Shown here piece after piece: positions 6,333-20,451 of a DNA stretch of 20,451 bases. The stretch lies in NCBI GenBank assembly GCA_022925895.1, contig JAKSYS010000831.1, forward strand, positions 1-20,451, given 5' to 3'. A program made the translations under genes and the position numbers. Under the pieces are notes generated by a model. The model was given only the letters and a program-made list of their open reading frames with translations, was not told where the DNA came from and made no database searches. Every line of letters begins with the position of its first letter. Position 1 is the stretch's first letter. Source of the stretch: Fragilaria crotonensis (lineage: Eukaryota > Bacillariophyta > Fragilariophyceae > Fragilariales > Fragilariaceae).

Positions 6333-7295
6333 TCACTCAAAGAAGTCCTTTGCTAACCTTAGAAACGCGAATTCAATGCAGTTTCCACCAGTCAATAGGT
6401 TTGGTTCTTTATGAAAAATGGCATAACCCGCGTCATGCAAATCCTCAAAGAACTTGTCGCTGATGCTATTCCAGGCGTGAACTTCAACCAGAATCTGTCG
6501 AATGTTTTGGTTCAAAATGTCCTTATGGGTGGACCATTCACAACCCTCGCAATCAATCTTAAAGATCTCAATCGTTCGACCAGTATGTCCAAGACGCTCC
6601 ATGGTGTCAGGAAGGCTGACAAACTCAAGACCTTCCAATCCTTTCTTTACTGTCATCGGCTTTCCGTAGCTAGATTTGAGGCCCCATGAGTGATAGTTGG
6701 AACGGTCAAGGCCACTTTGCTCCATCTGTTGAGAGTAATCAGTCGGATCAAAGACATGAATCTCACAATTGGGCAGTTGACGCTGCAGATCCAACTCAAA
6801 GGCAAAATTACCGTTGGATCCGATGCTGTAGACTAAACACTCCCTCTTTTTTGCAATGCGATGAGGGTCACATACCCATTTGTGAGCATCAGTATTGACC
6901 TGGCCGATGCTGATTTCGAACTGACAGGAAAAGTTGGGATCCCAATTGGCTGCGTAATACCTTGTAGCTGTGTCGTTGCTGCCGTTCAATCTGTTTTGAT
7001 AGGGCTGACTGGCGCTGGTAATGGCTTTCATGCGTTGCCACGCGTGAGCGGGAATGTCATCAAAGAACCCTAAACTCTCTCGTAAGGCCAATTGAAAGTC
7101 GTCATCCAACCTCGGCACTTCGGCCTTCTTGCTTTGACTGGAACCTTTTTCCTCCTTGTCACCGTCGTTCTGTTCGGCAATCGTTTTTCTTTTTGTAGCC
7201 GACGGAGTCGTACGGAATACAACTGACGCGAAGAGAAAAGTGAGTAGCACCACCCCACACACTTTATTGAAGGAATATCGTTCACTCTTCATCAT
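6333..7295 (-). CDS. METTL24-like membrane-anchored methyltransferase
   Basis: A 320-residue protein. An N-terminal hydrophobic segment (about residues 11-27) after a short basic stretch suggests a type II signal anchor, placing the catalytic part in the secretory lumen or outside. A Lys/Glu-rich linker (35-60) follows. The C-terminal domain has CDPHRI (142-147), the SAM-binding type motif YSIGSNGNFAFEL (156-168), VFDPTD (181-186) and FKIDCEGCEW (245-254), then a EVHAW strand (271-275). This order is that of the METTL24/Methyltransf_22 group, related to FkbM methyltransferases; substrate unknown. The start is MM at 7295, with the second Met equally possible. The length fits the family with no break. 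A partial broken copy lies upstream at 8309-8622 on the same strand. The family call is from recognised motifs, not from a search. Confidence 0.85.
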   Translation of the reverse strand: MMKSERYSFNKVCGVVLLTFLFASVVFRTTPSATKRKTIAEQNDGDKEEKGSSQSKKAEVPRLDDDFQLALRESLGFFDDIPAHAWQRMKAITSASQPYQNRLNGSNDTATRYYAANWDPNFSCQFEISIGQVNTDAHKWVCDPHRIAKKRECLVYSIGSNGNFAFELDLQRQLPNCEIHVFDPTDYSQQMEQSGLDRSNYHSWGLKSSYGKPMTVKKGLEGLEFVSLPDTMERLGHTGRTIEIFKIDCEGCEWSTHKDILNQNIRQILVEVHAWNSISDKFFEDLHDAGYAIFHKEPNLLTGGNCIEFAFLRLAKDFFE

Positions 7296-8308
7296 TGTGG
7301 ATCTGTGAGCGCGTTCTTGTTGATGTCAAACCATCAACGGGCGCAAGACCACCCCAAGAATGACGAAGTGCTCAGAAGGACAAAAGGTGTTTCTCCGTAC
7401 TTATTTATGATTACAATCTGGGTTACACATTTTTTTCCGCGACCACATGTTTTAATTTAAAACGGATGAGATTTTGTGTTTGAATGTTTGAATGCGCCGT
7501 TGAGAAATGTGTATTTGTGTTTTCTGAACTGCTCCAGTACAAGTACTCCGGTACCAGCAGGAACACTATGTAATTGTAAAATTGATGTTTGGTAGATCCG
7601 CCAAAATGATGTATACTTGTTCAGTGGCTTAACGTCACAAACGATCTAAGGCACTCTGTCAACAAGAGTACAAACGTCCCACAGTTTATCGCGAATACTT
7701 GATTTTGCATAGTGACTATTTAAGGCATGAGCTATCACCTGCGGTCTTCGTTCGAAAGTGTGTTCACGTCCCTGCTCCATGTGTCATGTGCATGGCTGGC
7801 CATTCTCAAGGATAGTAAACATCAGGTCATGGAACCCAGACAATTCCTACCACCACCACTCACCGCTGCCTGCGGCTCCCATCCGGCAACCGGCAACCAA
7901 CCTCAGGAACGCAAGTGCACCAGGTCACCCAACTCCAAACAATGCTCTCCGTACTCAGTACTCTACCTACTTATTAAGATCACATTCTTCTCTGCTGGAT
8001 GACCACAGGACTGATAACCATCATGTCCCGCCCAGCAAGGCTGTGTTCAACGAGTAGGACCCCATAACATTGTGCTAACTTCTTTTTGGTCTTCGACAAT
8101 GGTCTCGATCATTTTTTGCTGCCATCCTACATTTTGAATTTGCTGCGAAGTTTGTTCAAACGTGGGCAAGGCTTCTCATTGTTACGAACTCTATCCCTGC
8201 CGAGATTGGAAGCAAGCACACTTTGTACATGTTTCCATGATACCTATAAAAGTCTTATGAAGGTATAATGTAAATGCCGCCAAGCAAAGGTATCCATGTT
8301 AACGACCG
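7296..8308. other. Spacer between methyltransferase gene and its broken copy
   Basis: About 1 kb with no supportable gene. Overlapping plus-strand frames at 7727-8057 are rich in Pro/His/Ser and have no motif. The first part (7296-7600) should hold the promoter of the methyltransferase. A GTAC cluster occurs at about 7539-7556. The bases just outside the start codon (tgtgagcgc) are shared with the matching position of the broken copy. Confidence 0.45.
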
Positions 8309-8622
8309 TCAGTTAAAATATTCCTTTGCCAACTTGAGAAAAGCGAATTCCATGCACTTTCCAGCTGTGTACAGGTTTGCCTCCTTATGAAAAATGGCAT
8401 AACCCGCGTCATGCAAATCATCGAAGAACAGGACAGTATCGTTATTCACAATTTGCACTTCAACAAGTATCTGTTGAATATTTTGGTTATTGTGCGTCCA
8501 GAGCAGTGTGATTTGTTGCCGATGGAACAGTACGGAAAGCGACTGTCGCCCAAGAGAAGAGCGGGGATCACGACACCGCTCACTCGTACCCAGGAACATC
8601 TTGCACGCTTTTCACGCTTCAT
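8309..8622 (-). pseudogene. Internally deleted copy of the METTL24-like gene
   Basis: Read on the minus strand, the 5' end (ATG at 8622, MKREKR..., then a hydrophobic stretch) aligns in DNA with the first roughly 100 bases of the intact gene, including the leader gcgctcaca just before the ATG. The text then jumps to the last roughly 70 residues: NIQQILVEV, FFDDLHDAGYAIFHKEANL, GKCMEFAFLKLAKEYF and a TGA at 8309-8311. The intact gene has NIRQILVEV, FFEDLHDAGYAIFHKEPNL and GNCIEFAFLRLAKDFF at the same places. About 650 bp, including the SAM-binding motifs and the KIDCEGCEW motif, are missing. The two remaining pieces are in different frames. The copy is therefore non-functional as a methyltransferase. 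A same-strand position 1 kb away suggests tandem duplication followed by deletion. Confidence 0.88.
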
Positions 8623-12948: not shown

Positions 12949-14218
12949 ATGTATGAAGCGATGACATCCAACAGAAAGGTTTGGGTGAGGCTTCTTTTGA
13001 TCCTTTCCTGGCAACACCGAAGTCTTGGTCTGCATTCCATCACCTTCCCGTTGACCAGAAACTACACTCCGGACCATGGAGCCTCCCTACTGGAATCCTT
13101 TCACAAAGTGGTTGACTCGACCGATTTCTTTGTTGCATCATCGACACAACCCGGACGGTGCTTAGTGCCACTATTTGGCGACGATGTTACGGTGACCTTT
13201 GGTCCCGCTTCTCAAGTGCCCATCACTGAATATGTCCTAACCGTCCAAGGATCGACGCTCACAAAATCAGATTTTGCGTGGATTCTGCTCAAATTCTTTG
13301 AATGCAAGGAGTCCTTCGAGCCAATTAGTAGCACCACGGCGTTGCGTAAGGCAGTTGCAGAACATTATAACGCCCAACCTCCACATCCAGGATACAATGC
13401 CGAGCTCACAGCTGGAAATGGGAAACGTTTGGCCATGCTAGATTCCAATGCTCTGGCCCAGTTGAAAAAGGATGGTTTTGTTGTGCTCAACATGGACCTC
13501 AAAACTTCCAAAGCCAGCAATCAAATGTTATCCGAATTTTTGGTCCAAAGCACCGGTCAAGGGCTCTCGGTTCGAAGGGACACAGTTGCATTTTTGGACA
13601 AGAAAGATGCAATGGCATGTGGTTTGGAGGAACAATACAACTTCCTAATGAGTATTGCATCTCATCTCAACCACCATTTCTCATTCCCAAATTCTGCGTA
13701 TCAACCATTAGCGCCAGGCACCCATTCAAGGCCTCTGACCAATCCCAAACACATTCAGGCAGCCGAGTATGGCATGGGCGGATTCTATGTCGCGCACAGG
13801 TACGTCAGTAGCTTTAGAAACCGAGCAAGGACATTCAAACGCATACAATGATCTGAGTTACTCCCTACATGTTTACAGTGACAATTCCATTGCAGACGAG
13901 AACATTCGAAGTAACTTTCGGTGCTACACCTGTATCCTGTATTGCAATGATGATTGGACTGCCGTCGATGGCGGGGCTCTTCGAATCTACCGCGATAGCT
14001 CCGAGTTGAAGGTTCCAGCTGATGCACTTACTCAGTGCTCGCATCAAGACATTTTCCCAGAGAATGGGAGATTGGTCATTTTTGATTCCAAGCTTGTCCA
14101 TTCCGTACAACGTGTCAGTCAGGACAAACGTCGACGCGCTCTGACCCTTTGGATACTACGGCCTGAAGATAGTGGTGCACGTGGCGACGTTTACTACTTT
14201 GGCGAACATGTATCCTAA
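12949..14218 (+). CDS. Prolyl-4-hydroxylase-like 2OG-Fe(II) oxygenase, one intron
   Basis: Two exons, 12949-13799 and 13879-14218, give 396 residues. The N-terminus (MTSNRKVWVRLLLILSW) is a likely signal peptide, with Met1 at 12949 or Met5 at 12961. Residues 40-160 show no known motif. The oxygenase domain begins near LKKDGFVVL (172). Splicing creates YGMGGFYVAHSDN, supplying the iron ligands H283 and D285; the third ligand is H358 (LVHSVQ) and R368 is the likely 2-oxoglutarate contact. RCYTCILYCNDDW and GGALRIY are typical core strands. These enzymes hydroxylate Pro or other residues using O2 and 2-oxoglutarate; a secreted or ER substrate is suggested by the leader. The first exon's frame would stop at 13849-13851 without splicing. 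The gene shares a promoter region with the WD40 gene. Confidence 0.88.
13800..13878 (+). other. Intron of the oxygenase gene (79 bp, phase 2)
   Basis: The donor is GTACGT right after CACAG, and the acceptor is TTTACAG before TGACAATTCC. Removing it joins two frames and restores the HxD iron-binding motif exactly (AG|T gives Ser between His and Asp). The length is not a multiple of three and it carries a stop in frame. Confidence 0.93.
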
Positions 14219-17026: not shown

Positions 17027-17705
17027 ACATATTTTTTGCCATGTGATGTGGAATTTCTCGATACTCTAAAATTTTGGTCGTGTATGCGTAATCCTAGTAC
17101 AAGTTTGCATGCGAGAAGATACCTTTTCATAACGATATAAAGCATAAGTCTGGCGTGCGGACGTCCGGACATCGATTTTTTTTAGGGGATGCTGCCTTCA
17201 TCCTCTAAATGACTTGGGCGCGCCATTTACGGGAGTTAATTCTCCGTTCGCAGGAAATTGAGCCGTTCAGGGAGGCCTGTGTAAGTGGTGGTTTCATACC
17301 TTATCAATGAAGGACGATAGTCAGCGCCTGTCCTGCGAGCCTTCCAGCTTCATTGATTCCGTTGCTTTGATGCACATGAAATAATATGTCGCTGGTAAAA
17401 ATACTACACCGCTCTTAAACAACAGTTCATCGTGGTACATAGTACATAGACGCAGTAGACATGCAATCCCAAACGCACTTCAAAAGGCGTCCAGAGAAAG
17501 TTGCACACGGAGTACAAGTACTGTATGCATAGGTCTACTGCAGAACCTGTTTAAAAGTGTGTACTGCGTACGTTGTTCATGTAGTACATAGTTGGACATA
17601 CCTGGTACTGTACCGTGATCAGCAGCAACAACAACAAAAAACAGTTTTCCTGGGTCTGTGTATGAATACCCGGTGTTAAAAGGTGGTGGCTATTGATCAA
17701 CGACC
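17027..17705. promoter_or_regulatory. Divergent promoter region of the 874-residue and membrane-protein genes
   Basis: 679 bp with no gene seen. It includes conserved blocks shared with the copy at 19921-20451: gtgcggacgtccgg (with the palindrome GGACGTCC at 17159-17166), a T8 run, and atttacgggagt followed by aattctccgtt. A 10-bp stem (ttaggggatg/catcctctaa, 17182-17191 and 17199-17208, one G-T pair) lies between them. GTAC words cluster at 17510-17612. Confidence 0.55.
17099..17690. repeat. Long direct repeat, copy 1
   Basis: From acaagtttgcatgcgagaagatacc to aaaaggtggtggc, this aligns along its length with 19921-20451, offset 2822 bp, with substitutions and several indels. It ends 15 bp before the ATG of the membrane-protein gene. 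Confidence 0.9.
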
Positions 17706-18353
17706 ATGATGAAGCCCACGCTGTTGAACGTTGCGGCAATTGTATCCATTATTCTGTGTATTGTCCTCTGTGTCATTGAAACAGTGCTCAAAATAGTGGA
17801 AGGAGGACCGCCCAGCGAAGTCGGCTTGATTGTCGTATCGTATCTGTTGATTACGACCTTGGCCGTCATTGTAATCTTCGGCAAGTTAGGACCACACCCA
17901 GCAAAACATGATGACATTACTGAGTGGATTACGTCATCAATGTGTTTGGTGTTTGCAATAATGCTGTTGGTACGGTCCTTGATTAGCTGGGATCCTTTTT
18001 ATCTTGTTGTTGCCATCGTTTGCGTTTTGGGGATTGCTGTACACTCGGCGCGGCAATGTGGTCTCATTGCTAAGCCCCTCGCTACGCCTCCCACGACCCC
18101 ACCATTTTCTCGACTCAGTAGGGACAGCAGAGTTAATATCTGGATTCTCTTGCTCTGGGTCGTTAATTTGATTCTTGTGACGTGGGACAGTGGGAGAATA
18201 TGGGAACCCATCAGTTTTGGAATGGTGGCAGTCTCTTGCGGGATCGTGGCGTTCAGTCCATCTATTGACTACGCTGACGTAACAGACGCAGAGACTCTGG
18301 GGGCGCAACAGGACGGATCCGTCGCTAGTCATTACGAGGGAATGCCAGTATAA
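17706..18353 (+). CDS. Six-segment membrane protein of unknown function
   Basis: A 215-residue protein. Hydrophobic segments lie at about 7-29, 38-60, 74-91, 97-113, 143-160 and 167-184. The loop 114-142 is Pro/Thr/Ser/Arg-rich (PLATPPTTPPFSRLSRDSR). The C-terminal tail (186-215) is acidic and soluble. Conserved-looking charged/aromatic points near membranes are ISWDPF (93-98) and TWDSGRIWEP (159-168), which resemble each other and may mark a duplication of a three-segment half. I do not recognise the family; no transport or enzyme motif is visible. The start is MM at 17706. The whole upstream region is duplicated at the right edge of the window, which suggests the gene belongs to a tandem family. 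Confidence 0.72.
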   Translation: MMKPTLLNVAAIVSIILCIVLCVIETVLKIVEGGPPSEVGLIVVSYLLITTLAVIVIFGKLGPHPAKHDDITEWITSSMCLVFAIMLLVRSLISWDPFYLVVAIVCVLGIAVHSARQCGLIAKPLATPPTTPPFSRLSRDSRVNIWILLLWVVNLILVTWDSGRIWEPISFGMVAVSCGIVAFSPSIDYADVTDAETLGAQQDGSVASHYEGMPV

Positions 18354-18737
18354 GTGCGGCTGCCGTCGCCTTTTGAAAAAGTGTCATTGTCATCTGTAAG
18401 CCATTGTGGAGAAGTTGAGGAGGCTCCCGAAGATCCCGTGCGATAAGCCGATGGTATCATCGTTCATGATCACCGCTGGAAGACTTGAGGGATCTTTTCA
18501 TTGCCTGGAATGTGGCACGTGGTTGTTGTGTTACATTCTCGCAGCGCCATCACTCATGATTTGAACATCAAGGGCTCAAGTTGCGTAGCCTGTATACTAA
18601 CCGGTCCGCCGAGTAGAAGATAGTCTTCCATCAAACTGCAACTACATCATAGTCAGCGCACAAAATGAAACTGGACTCCGACTCCTTTTTCTACGCTCTG
18701 GAAAGGTGACCGGTCGTACCGCTTCCGTTGAAGACCC
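18354..18737. other. Convergent 3' spacer
   Basis: 384 bp between the stop codons of the membrane-protein gene and the DUF3783-like gene. No gene or strong repeat is seen; it likely holds both 3' ends. Confidence 0.5.
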
Positions 18738-19484
18738 TTAAGCGATATAACTAGTATCATCTTTCAACTCTATGCTGGTGGCGTCCAAATGGTCGCCCGA
18801 AATCTCTTCCAGGACCTGTTTCAAAGATTTTCCCATCGCGTTGGGAACAGCCTTTGCGCATGCCGCAGTTACTCCAATCTCGAGGTATATTTGGCTTGCA
18901 ATTATGTTATAACTTGCCATCATTTCTCGATTGTCAAAGCCAGAAAAGAACAAGACTGGACATGCACGATCGCTTCCAACAACATCTGCAGCATTAAGAG
19001 TAGTACTCGAAGAAGTTGTCGTCCCACTCATGTCAGAATCCATAATCTGACTCAATGCTGCTTCCACCGAGCATCCGAGCAGATTATTCTGGTCTTGGTG
19101 GTTGTCAATTCTCGCAAGTCGGACTCCTTTGCGATGCGCCAACGGAGCTCCGTCAGACAGGATATCTTGTATCTCTTCGTCGTCGATTTCGGAGGGCACC
19201 TTGTAAAGCATAATGGCAGGACCGGGACCATAACTTTCTGTTTCTTCCAGCTTGATAAAGTCACCATCTCGAGATTGCAAGAAATTAGACAACGAGTTGA
19301 TCAATCCCATTGACAGCACCGTTTTCGATGTTTGTCGATGATAGGCATTTCTGCCAACTGAAAACGCGTTTGACGATGTTCCCATCAGAACTGAGGCAAT
19401 TAAAAGTAGACCTGGAAGCATGATCGAGGTATCACTGTGAACTGTGATCGGAATGTGAGCAAGGCGCTTAGAGTTAAAATGCAT
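18738..19484 (-). CDS. DUF3783-like small protein with plastid-type leader
   Basis: The open frame allows 248 residues from 19484, but Met22 at 19421 is the likely start. From there MLPGLLLIASVLMGTSSNAF is a signal peptide ending in an Ala-Phe motif (NAF, 39-41), followed by a Ser/Arg/Thr/Lys transit-like stretch (42-56), as in diatom plastid presequences. The C-terminal part (about 174-232: CPVLFFSGFDNREMM, then VTAACAKAVPNAMGKSLKQV and EEISGDH) fits the DUF3783 pattern: a short strand, an SGF-D turn, a helix, then a small strand and a final helix. An N-terminal part (90-127: PAIMLYKVPSEIDDEE) has a similar strand-turn-Asp/Glu pattern and may be a second, diverged copy. Between them is a Ser/Thr linker (152-163). 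Function is unknown; a plastid stroma location is inferred. The family call is tentative. Confidence 0.72.
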   Translation of the reverse strand: MHFNSKRLAHIPITVHSDTSIMLPGLLLIASVLMGTSSNAFSVGRNAYHRQTSKTVLSMGLINSLSNFLQSRDGDFIKLEETESYGPGPAIMLYKVPSEIDDEEIQDILSDGAPLAHRKGVRLARIDNHQDQNNLLGCSVEAALSQIMDSDMSGTTTSSSTTLNAADVVGSDRACPVLFFSGFDNREMMASYNIIASQIYLEIGVTAACAKAVPNAMGKSLKQVLEEISGDHLDATSIELKDDTSYIA

Positions 19485-19920
19485 TTATGCATACGGAGTC
19501 AACAACAACGACGTCTGTCATGGTCGTCAGAATCAGCTCAGAGCAAGCACTTATACACAGTGCATAGTACATGTACTGTATATATGTATTACAAGTCTAT
19601 GCACGACAGCTGTGACGATCCCATGTACGGAGTACTCCAGTACCTGTATTTTTGCTGTATCAGTACGGAGTGGTACTGTAGCATTCTCCCTCGGTTTGCT
19701 TAGTACAAGTACTGGTACTGTACAAGGTATGAGCTCTTGCTGGCAGCAGTTCCAGTCTTCCAGTACATTCAGTACATACTACATAGTACCAGTACTGTAC
19801 TCATCAGATTTCGGACAGCGGTTGACACATCATTCAAGACTCCAAGGCTTCAACTTGAATCGCTCTTCCCTTTTTTATAAGCATCTCATTTAATGGGCGC
19901 GTCGGTAGTACATACAATAC
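19485..19920. promoter_or_regulatory. GTAC-dense region upstream of the DUF3783-like gene
   Basis: Between 19561 and 19801 I count 16 GTAC tetramers in about 240 bp (for example agtacaagtactggtactg and ggagtactccagtacc). About one would be expected by chance. No gene is supported: the short plus-strand frames overlapping here are repeat translations. Confidence 0.6.
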
Positions 19921-20451
19921 ACAAGTTTGCATGCGAGAAGATACCTGGTACAAGTACGAGTACCTTTTATAGTACATAACGATAGAAAGCATATCTGGTG
20001 TGCGGACGTCCGGGCATCGATTTTTTTTAGAGGATGTTGCCTTCACGCTCTAATCGACTTGGGCGCCATTTACGGGAGTCAATTCTCCGTTAGCAGGAAA
20101 TTGAGCCGTTCTGGGCTCAGAGAGGCCTTGGAGATTTTCATACCTTACATGTCAATTAATGACGATAGTCAGAGCCTGTCAGCGAGCCTTCCAGCTTTAT
20201 TGATTTCGTTGTTACGATGCACATGAAATACATGTCCCTGGTACAAATACTCTACATGTATATGGACACCGCTCTAAGCCAGCAGGTCATGTAGACATGC
20301 ATTCCCCACTCCAGAACCTGCTTACATGAACTCTGAGTACAGTGCACGTTATACTTGTACTTGTATGTATGAAACGCATACATGCCGTGATCAGCGGAAA
20401 AAAAACCTGGTGTCCTTGGACACCGCATGCATATTCGATGCAAAAGGTGGC
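19921..20451. repeat. Long direct repeat, copy 2 (runs into the right edge)
   Basis: Matches 17099-17690 from acaagtttgcatgcg to aaaaggtggc at the last base. The shared order is: gcggacgtccgg, a T8 run, atttacgggagtcaattctccgtt, gaaattgagccgttc, gacgatagtcag, gagccttccagctt, gatgcacatgaaata, accgctcta, gtagacatgca, cagaacctg, ccgtgatcagc and aaaaggtgg. Copy 2 has a 19-bp addition (19946-19964) and lacks about 60 bp present in copy 1. In copy 1 the gene ATG comes 15 bp after this point. Confidence 0.9.

Follow-up and report, generated by a model that had tools for sequence, protein, structure and literature searches.

The window analysed here is the whole of contig C814 of the Fragilaria crotonensis assembly, 20,451 bp long, and its right end is the contig end. 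Close to that end, on the plus strand, lies a gene for a membrane protein, M1 (17706..18353), an open reading frame of 215 aa with six transmembrane helices by hydropathy and no convincing family. It is preceded by copy 1 of a duplicated upstream region (17099..17705, plus strand), which was delimited by the direct repeat, by alignment and by its sharp left edge. Downstream of M1 follow a 3′ flank (18354..18737) and, on the minus strand, an open reading frame of 248 aa for a DUF3783-like protein, D1 (18738..19484). Next to D1 is a spacer (19485..19920) for which no second copy was found and which carries 17 GTAC words in 436 bp. The spacer leads into copy 2 of the upstream region (19921..20451, plus strand), which ends where the contig ends.

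The M1 protein resembles DUF5391 (PF17369) in a weak match over residues 38–123 (E = 1.7e-4). The score of 22.2 bits, however, is below the 25.7-bit cut-off, and the product of the second copy of the gene, M2, has no Pfam match at E ≤ 0.01; the match is therefore probably an effect of hydrophobicity. M1 also matches PF03134 at 12.8 bits, again below cut-off. M has no match in NCBIfam at E ≤ 0.1 and none among the PDB sequences at E ≤ 1. Neither viral contigs (8 pattern matches) nor genome contigs of bacteria and archaea (24 pattern matches) yielded a confirmed relative of M. Residues 176–232 of D1 match Pfam DUF3783 (PF12646) at 20.9 bits, under the 27-bit cut-off, and the PDB sequences gave a single match at E = 0.17. 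At the start of the D1 protein, NAFSVG comes after a hydrophobic stretch, an arrangement that we take to be reminiscent of diatom plastid-targeting leaders.

Further to the left, at 12949–14218 on the plus strand, there are two overlapping frames. The second contains a 2OG-Fe(II) oxygenase domain (PF13640, 58.6 bits), and together they have the appearance of one gene interrupted by an intron or by a change of frame. The interval 606–752 holds 31-bp tandem units and palindromic AATATATTG words.

The repeat and the second membrane-protein gene

An earlier note on this DNA had described 19921–20451 as a repeat of 17099–17690 in the same orientation at a spacing of 2822 bp, and this direct repeat is real. 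The first 26 nt of the two copies are identical. When copy 1 was searched against the assembly (62,107,879 bases in 881 contigs, by a DNA search that skips very common words), copy 2 was matched at E = 9.5e-75 over 17128–17405, and its 26-nt edge was matched separately at E = 1.1e-4. A global alignment of 17099–17705 with copy 2 up to the start codon contains 63 differences in 490 aligned bases and many gaps. The left edge is sharp: 17 of the 60 positions preceding the copies agree. With very common words skipped, copy 1 as a query found no third upstream copy in the 62.1-Mb assembly, and a reciprocal search with 19490–20451 found no further copy either.

The same note had predicted a paralogue of the membrane protein just past the right edge, and the assembly contains one. 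A search with the M1 protein (17706–18350) led to one other place, C875:125969–126610 on the minus strand (E = 2.3e-116), and to no third M gene. The gene at this place, M2, is intact: it covers query residues 1–215 at 87% identity, has no stops and encodes 214 aa. As C875 is 126,633 bp long, 23 nt separate the ATG of M2 from the contig end.

The ends of the two contigs fit together. C814 terminates in ...AAAAGGTGGC, the reverse strand of C875 opens with GTGGCGACTATTGATCAACGACCATG, and the corresponding sequence of copy 1 is AAAAGGTGGTGGCTATTGATCAACGACCATG. The five nucleotides GTGGC are common to the end of C814 and the start of the C875 reverse strand. Merging the contigs on this word gives copy 2 the same length as copy 1 at this point and brings the two into register; the ATG then lies 18 nt beyond the end of the window, which corrects the 15 bp proposed before. 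A 5-nt overlap is weak evidence of a join by itself. Both contig ends lie within 5 nt of one point of the unit, which is strong, albeit indirect, evidence that C814 and C875 are neighbours. From these ends in register, we infer that the two contigs are physically adjacent and that copy 2 continues on the reverse strand of C875 into M2. On this basis C814 and C875 can probably be joined in the assembly, and the case illustrates that predicting from a repeat left incomplete by a contig end can succeed.

A longer tandem array could also be envisaged, in which further upstream–M–D units were collapsed or dropped between the contigs and M2 is the last of at least three copies. A collapsed repeat could likewise leave both contig ends within 5 nt of one point of the unit, and the published description of the assembly gives an estimated BUSCO completeness of 81% (PMC9476933); nevertheless, a simple join restores the register, and searches of the assembly, with very common words skipped in the DNA search, found neither a third M gene nor a third upstream copy, which makes such an array distinctly unlikely. 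The published assembly of F. crotonensis SAG 28.96, seemingly the one analysed here, was built from Nanopore reads with Canu (PMC9476933). With these reads and this assembler, a 2.8-kb repeat should not break the assembly. Most of the high-numbered contigs that we saw are short (C861, 13.4 kb; C867, 10.9 kb), and C862, C869, C870 and C875 measure 126–318 kb. These four may result from a late split or renaming, a possible explanation of the break between C814 and C875.

Extent and origin of the duplicated unit

Beyond the upstream region, the homology runs on through the gene (50 mismatches in 645 aligned positions), the 3′ flank (15 in 155), an intergenic part (17 in 139) and the tail of D (19 in 171), and then stops sharply. 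At this right edge, 22 of 60 flank positions agree, and the 300-nt flanks of the unit give alignment scores no better than shuffles. The edges of the unit are at 17099/19921 and 18911/21604 in the coordinates of the joined sequence, and copy 1 of the unit, 17099–18911, measures ~1.8 kb. It comprises the upstream region, the M gene, its 3′ flank and the tail of the DUF3783-like gene, of which only the 3′ part, 18738–18911, is taken in. The duplicated 3′ flank is common to C875, apart from 64 nt (18535–18598) that are absent from copy 2 in the alignment. The second copy of D is a truncated remnant at C875:125446–125637, which corresponds to residues 182–245, is 73% identical and contains 2 stops. 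The unit is thus neither the full 2.8 kb, with M and the DUF3783-like gene, nor M alone, the two extents that had been put forward. A 2.8-kb tandem unit would need an additional deletion; placing a 1.8-kb stretch 1 kb downstream needs one event. Either course may have been taken.

These observations make it very probable that the locus is the product of a local segmental duplication in the diatom nuclear genome, with copy 2 lying across an assembly break. The two copies share their orientation, are spaced by 2822 bp and share homology over their flanks with discrete edges, as in a duplication of the local, tandem type. A stretch of ~1.8 kb (17099–18911) would have been duplicated into a position about 1 kb downstream of itself. 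Copy 2 would lie over the assembly break, its upstream part ending C814, and M2 and the rest standing at the end of C875. Since the neighbour gene is truncated in copy 2 and has its full 248-aa frame in copy 1, copy 2 is probably the derived copy, and the copied tail of D would be a remnant. Judged from their sequences, M1 and M2 are both intact, and they are probably working paralogues that would have inherited their promoters.

It is very improbable that M1 and M2 are instead two alleles of a single locus that the assembler left unmerged: both upstream copies are on one contig, and neither the ~10% divergence at silent sites nor the truncated neighbour in copy 2 looks allelic. The reading of the repeat as a dispersed or mobile element merely situated upstream of the gene can be set aside almost entirely: the upstream region does hold GTAC words of the kind enriched in sampled non-coding DNA, but the homology is continuous through M and the 3′ flank into D, a comparison of edge stretches of 25 and 35 nt yielded no common word longer than 4 nt that could be a target-site duplication, and, instead of the many scattered genomic copies that the earlier note associated with such an element, the 62.1-Mb assembly yielded no copy elsewhere in a search that skips very common words.

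Divergence of the two copies

A local segmental duplication as outlined above is in line with the divergence of those parts that are free to drift, which is similar at synonymous sites of M (17/160) and in 17099–17405 (24/291) and fits one event. The latter figure was obtained after realignment with other gap costs. It does not differ significantly from the synonymous sites (p = 0.40), from the 3′ flank (15/155, p = 0.60) or from the intergenic part (17/139, p = 0.22), in comparisons that have little power because they are based on one sequence pair. The remaining upstream sequence, 17406–17705, is more diverged, with 39 differences in 199 aligned bases (20/114 and 19/85). After the realignment, the mismatches in 17099–17405 are not clustered (variance, p = 0.45; maximum, p = 0.57). 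The suggestion that conserved blocks within the repeat mark regulatory sites thus finds no support: as the blocks diverge about like synonymous sites and like 3′ non-coding DNA, regulatory constraint is not shown. They have the appearance of stretches that neutral drift has left between indels. In a first MAFFT alignment, 17128–17405 had shown 37 mismatches in 272 positions, clustered to a degree (window variance) that none of 3000 shuffles reached. The clustering disappeared on realignment, and regulatory conservation was rejected. We attribute the clustering to a misaligned patch near 17270–17290, which makes this result alignment-dependent.

Within the gene, the comparison of M1 with M2 shows differences at 17 of 160 synonymous sites (dS 0.114) and at 34 of 482 replacement sites (dN 0.074; NG86). 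The resulting dN/dS of ~0.65 does not fall significantly below 1 (Fisher p = 0.18). Indels, counted in the MAFFT alignment, are few in M compared with the flanks: there is one, of 3 nt and in frame, in the 648 bp of M, whereas the 607 bp upstream contain 14 and the 558 bp downstream contain 3. This points to coding constraint, with a deficit in M that is significant against the pooled expectation of 9.5 (p = 0.0008) and not significant against the downstream-only expectation of 3.5 (p = 0.14). With open frames of 215 and 214 aa, M1 and M2 are likely, if unproven, to be both working genes.

The identity between the two genes is patchy. Replacement differences are clustered (28 codons, p = 0.016), and the clustering of synonymous differences is not significant (14 codons, p = 0.44); when the labels were shuffled among the changed codons, the clustering of replacements was not significant (p = 0.13). 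Gene conversion was rejected as the origin of the patches, given that replacements are clustered and synonymous differences show no significant clustering; the patchiness therefore seems to lie in the protein. Predicted helices 1–6 contain 1, 8, 7, 0, 4 and 0 replacement codons (20 of 28), and 1, 2, 0, 2, 2 and 0 synonymous changes (7 of 14). Helices 2, 3 and 5 hold 19 of the 20 replacement differences located in helices. Six of 20,000 random placements were as uneven as the observed spread of replacements, for helix borders taken from our own hydropathy plot and a pattern seen before testing. This unevenness suggests that the predicted helices 2, 3 and 5 are relaxed or diversifying.

The indels in the upstream region include GTAC-bearing pieces in the MAFFT alignment. 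In a sample of 87.7 kb of non-coding DNA (86 stretches outside stop-to-stop frames of at least 150 codons, from 20 samples, L013–L032, and the window), GTAC occurs 650 times, about twofold the 298 expected from first-order Markov copies. Spacings of 5, 6, 7 and 8 bp between GTAC words were observed 27, 39, 37 and 25 times, ~18- to 39-fold the 1.0–1.4 expected for each. It is conceivable, although unlikely, that the upstream drift stems largely from gain and loss of GTAC arrays with a 5–8-bp pitch rather than from ordinary substitution, in combination with selection on the proteins that is limited to helices 2, 3 and 5. In the upstream pair, 4 of 16 GTAC words and 528 of 1150 other 4-mers are conserved, which does not amount to a significantly faster turnover of GTAC (p = 0.13). 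Candidate causes of such arrays would be a mutational process or the binding of an abundant factor to these sites. Our literature search found no paper on GTAC in diatoms. The M1/M2 pair can be used as a natural comparison of non-coding drift in F. crotonensis, GTAC arrays included.

Local duplication in this genome and in other diatoms

The G+C content of the genome is 47.5% in 200 kb sampled. Silicon transporters (PF03842) were matched at 19 places in the assembly, 18 of them over the cut-off, which was exceeded in none of the 14 control genomes. Three of these matches lie in one 1456-aa open frame (C97:29749–33762, plus strand) and two in one 1008-aa open frame (C771:21664–24330, minus strand). 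Multi-unit SIT genes occur in Synedra.

Self-comparison of 20 sampled 10-kb stretches (thresholds of at least 100 bp and E ≤ 1e-10) revealed repeats in 11, arrays and near-identical pairs included; among the four longest repeats per stretch, all are direct. One stretch, L029, contains a direct duplication of 1.08 kb at 87.7% inside one long open frame. A second local duplication is present on the contig analysed here: a Methyltransf_22 gene (6333–7295, minus strand) is accompanied by a truncated copy of its 3′ part at 8286–8599 (minus strand). This remnant, 1976 bp away, is 76% identical over 203 nt and covers positions 197–252 only of PF13383.

M1/M2 is an ordinary local gene duplication, one more pair of orphan membrane-protein paralogues among many local duplicates in diatoms. 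Among open-licence publications retrieved for F. crotonensis or for duplications in diatoms, none names the pair in its title or in the opening lines of its abstract. The Seminavis robusta paper counts 4594 tandem-duplicate genes in that species and 5670 in Synedra acus, and describes tandem duplicates as less constrained than dispersed ones (PMC7335047). Like the tandem duplicates reported there (PMC7335047), M1 and M2 are nearby paralogues on the same strand. Unlike them, M1 and M2 are two members of an orphan family, with a neighbour gene and a spacer between the copies, a truncated neighbour in the copied stretch and an assembly break inside copy 2.
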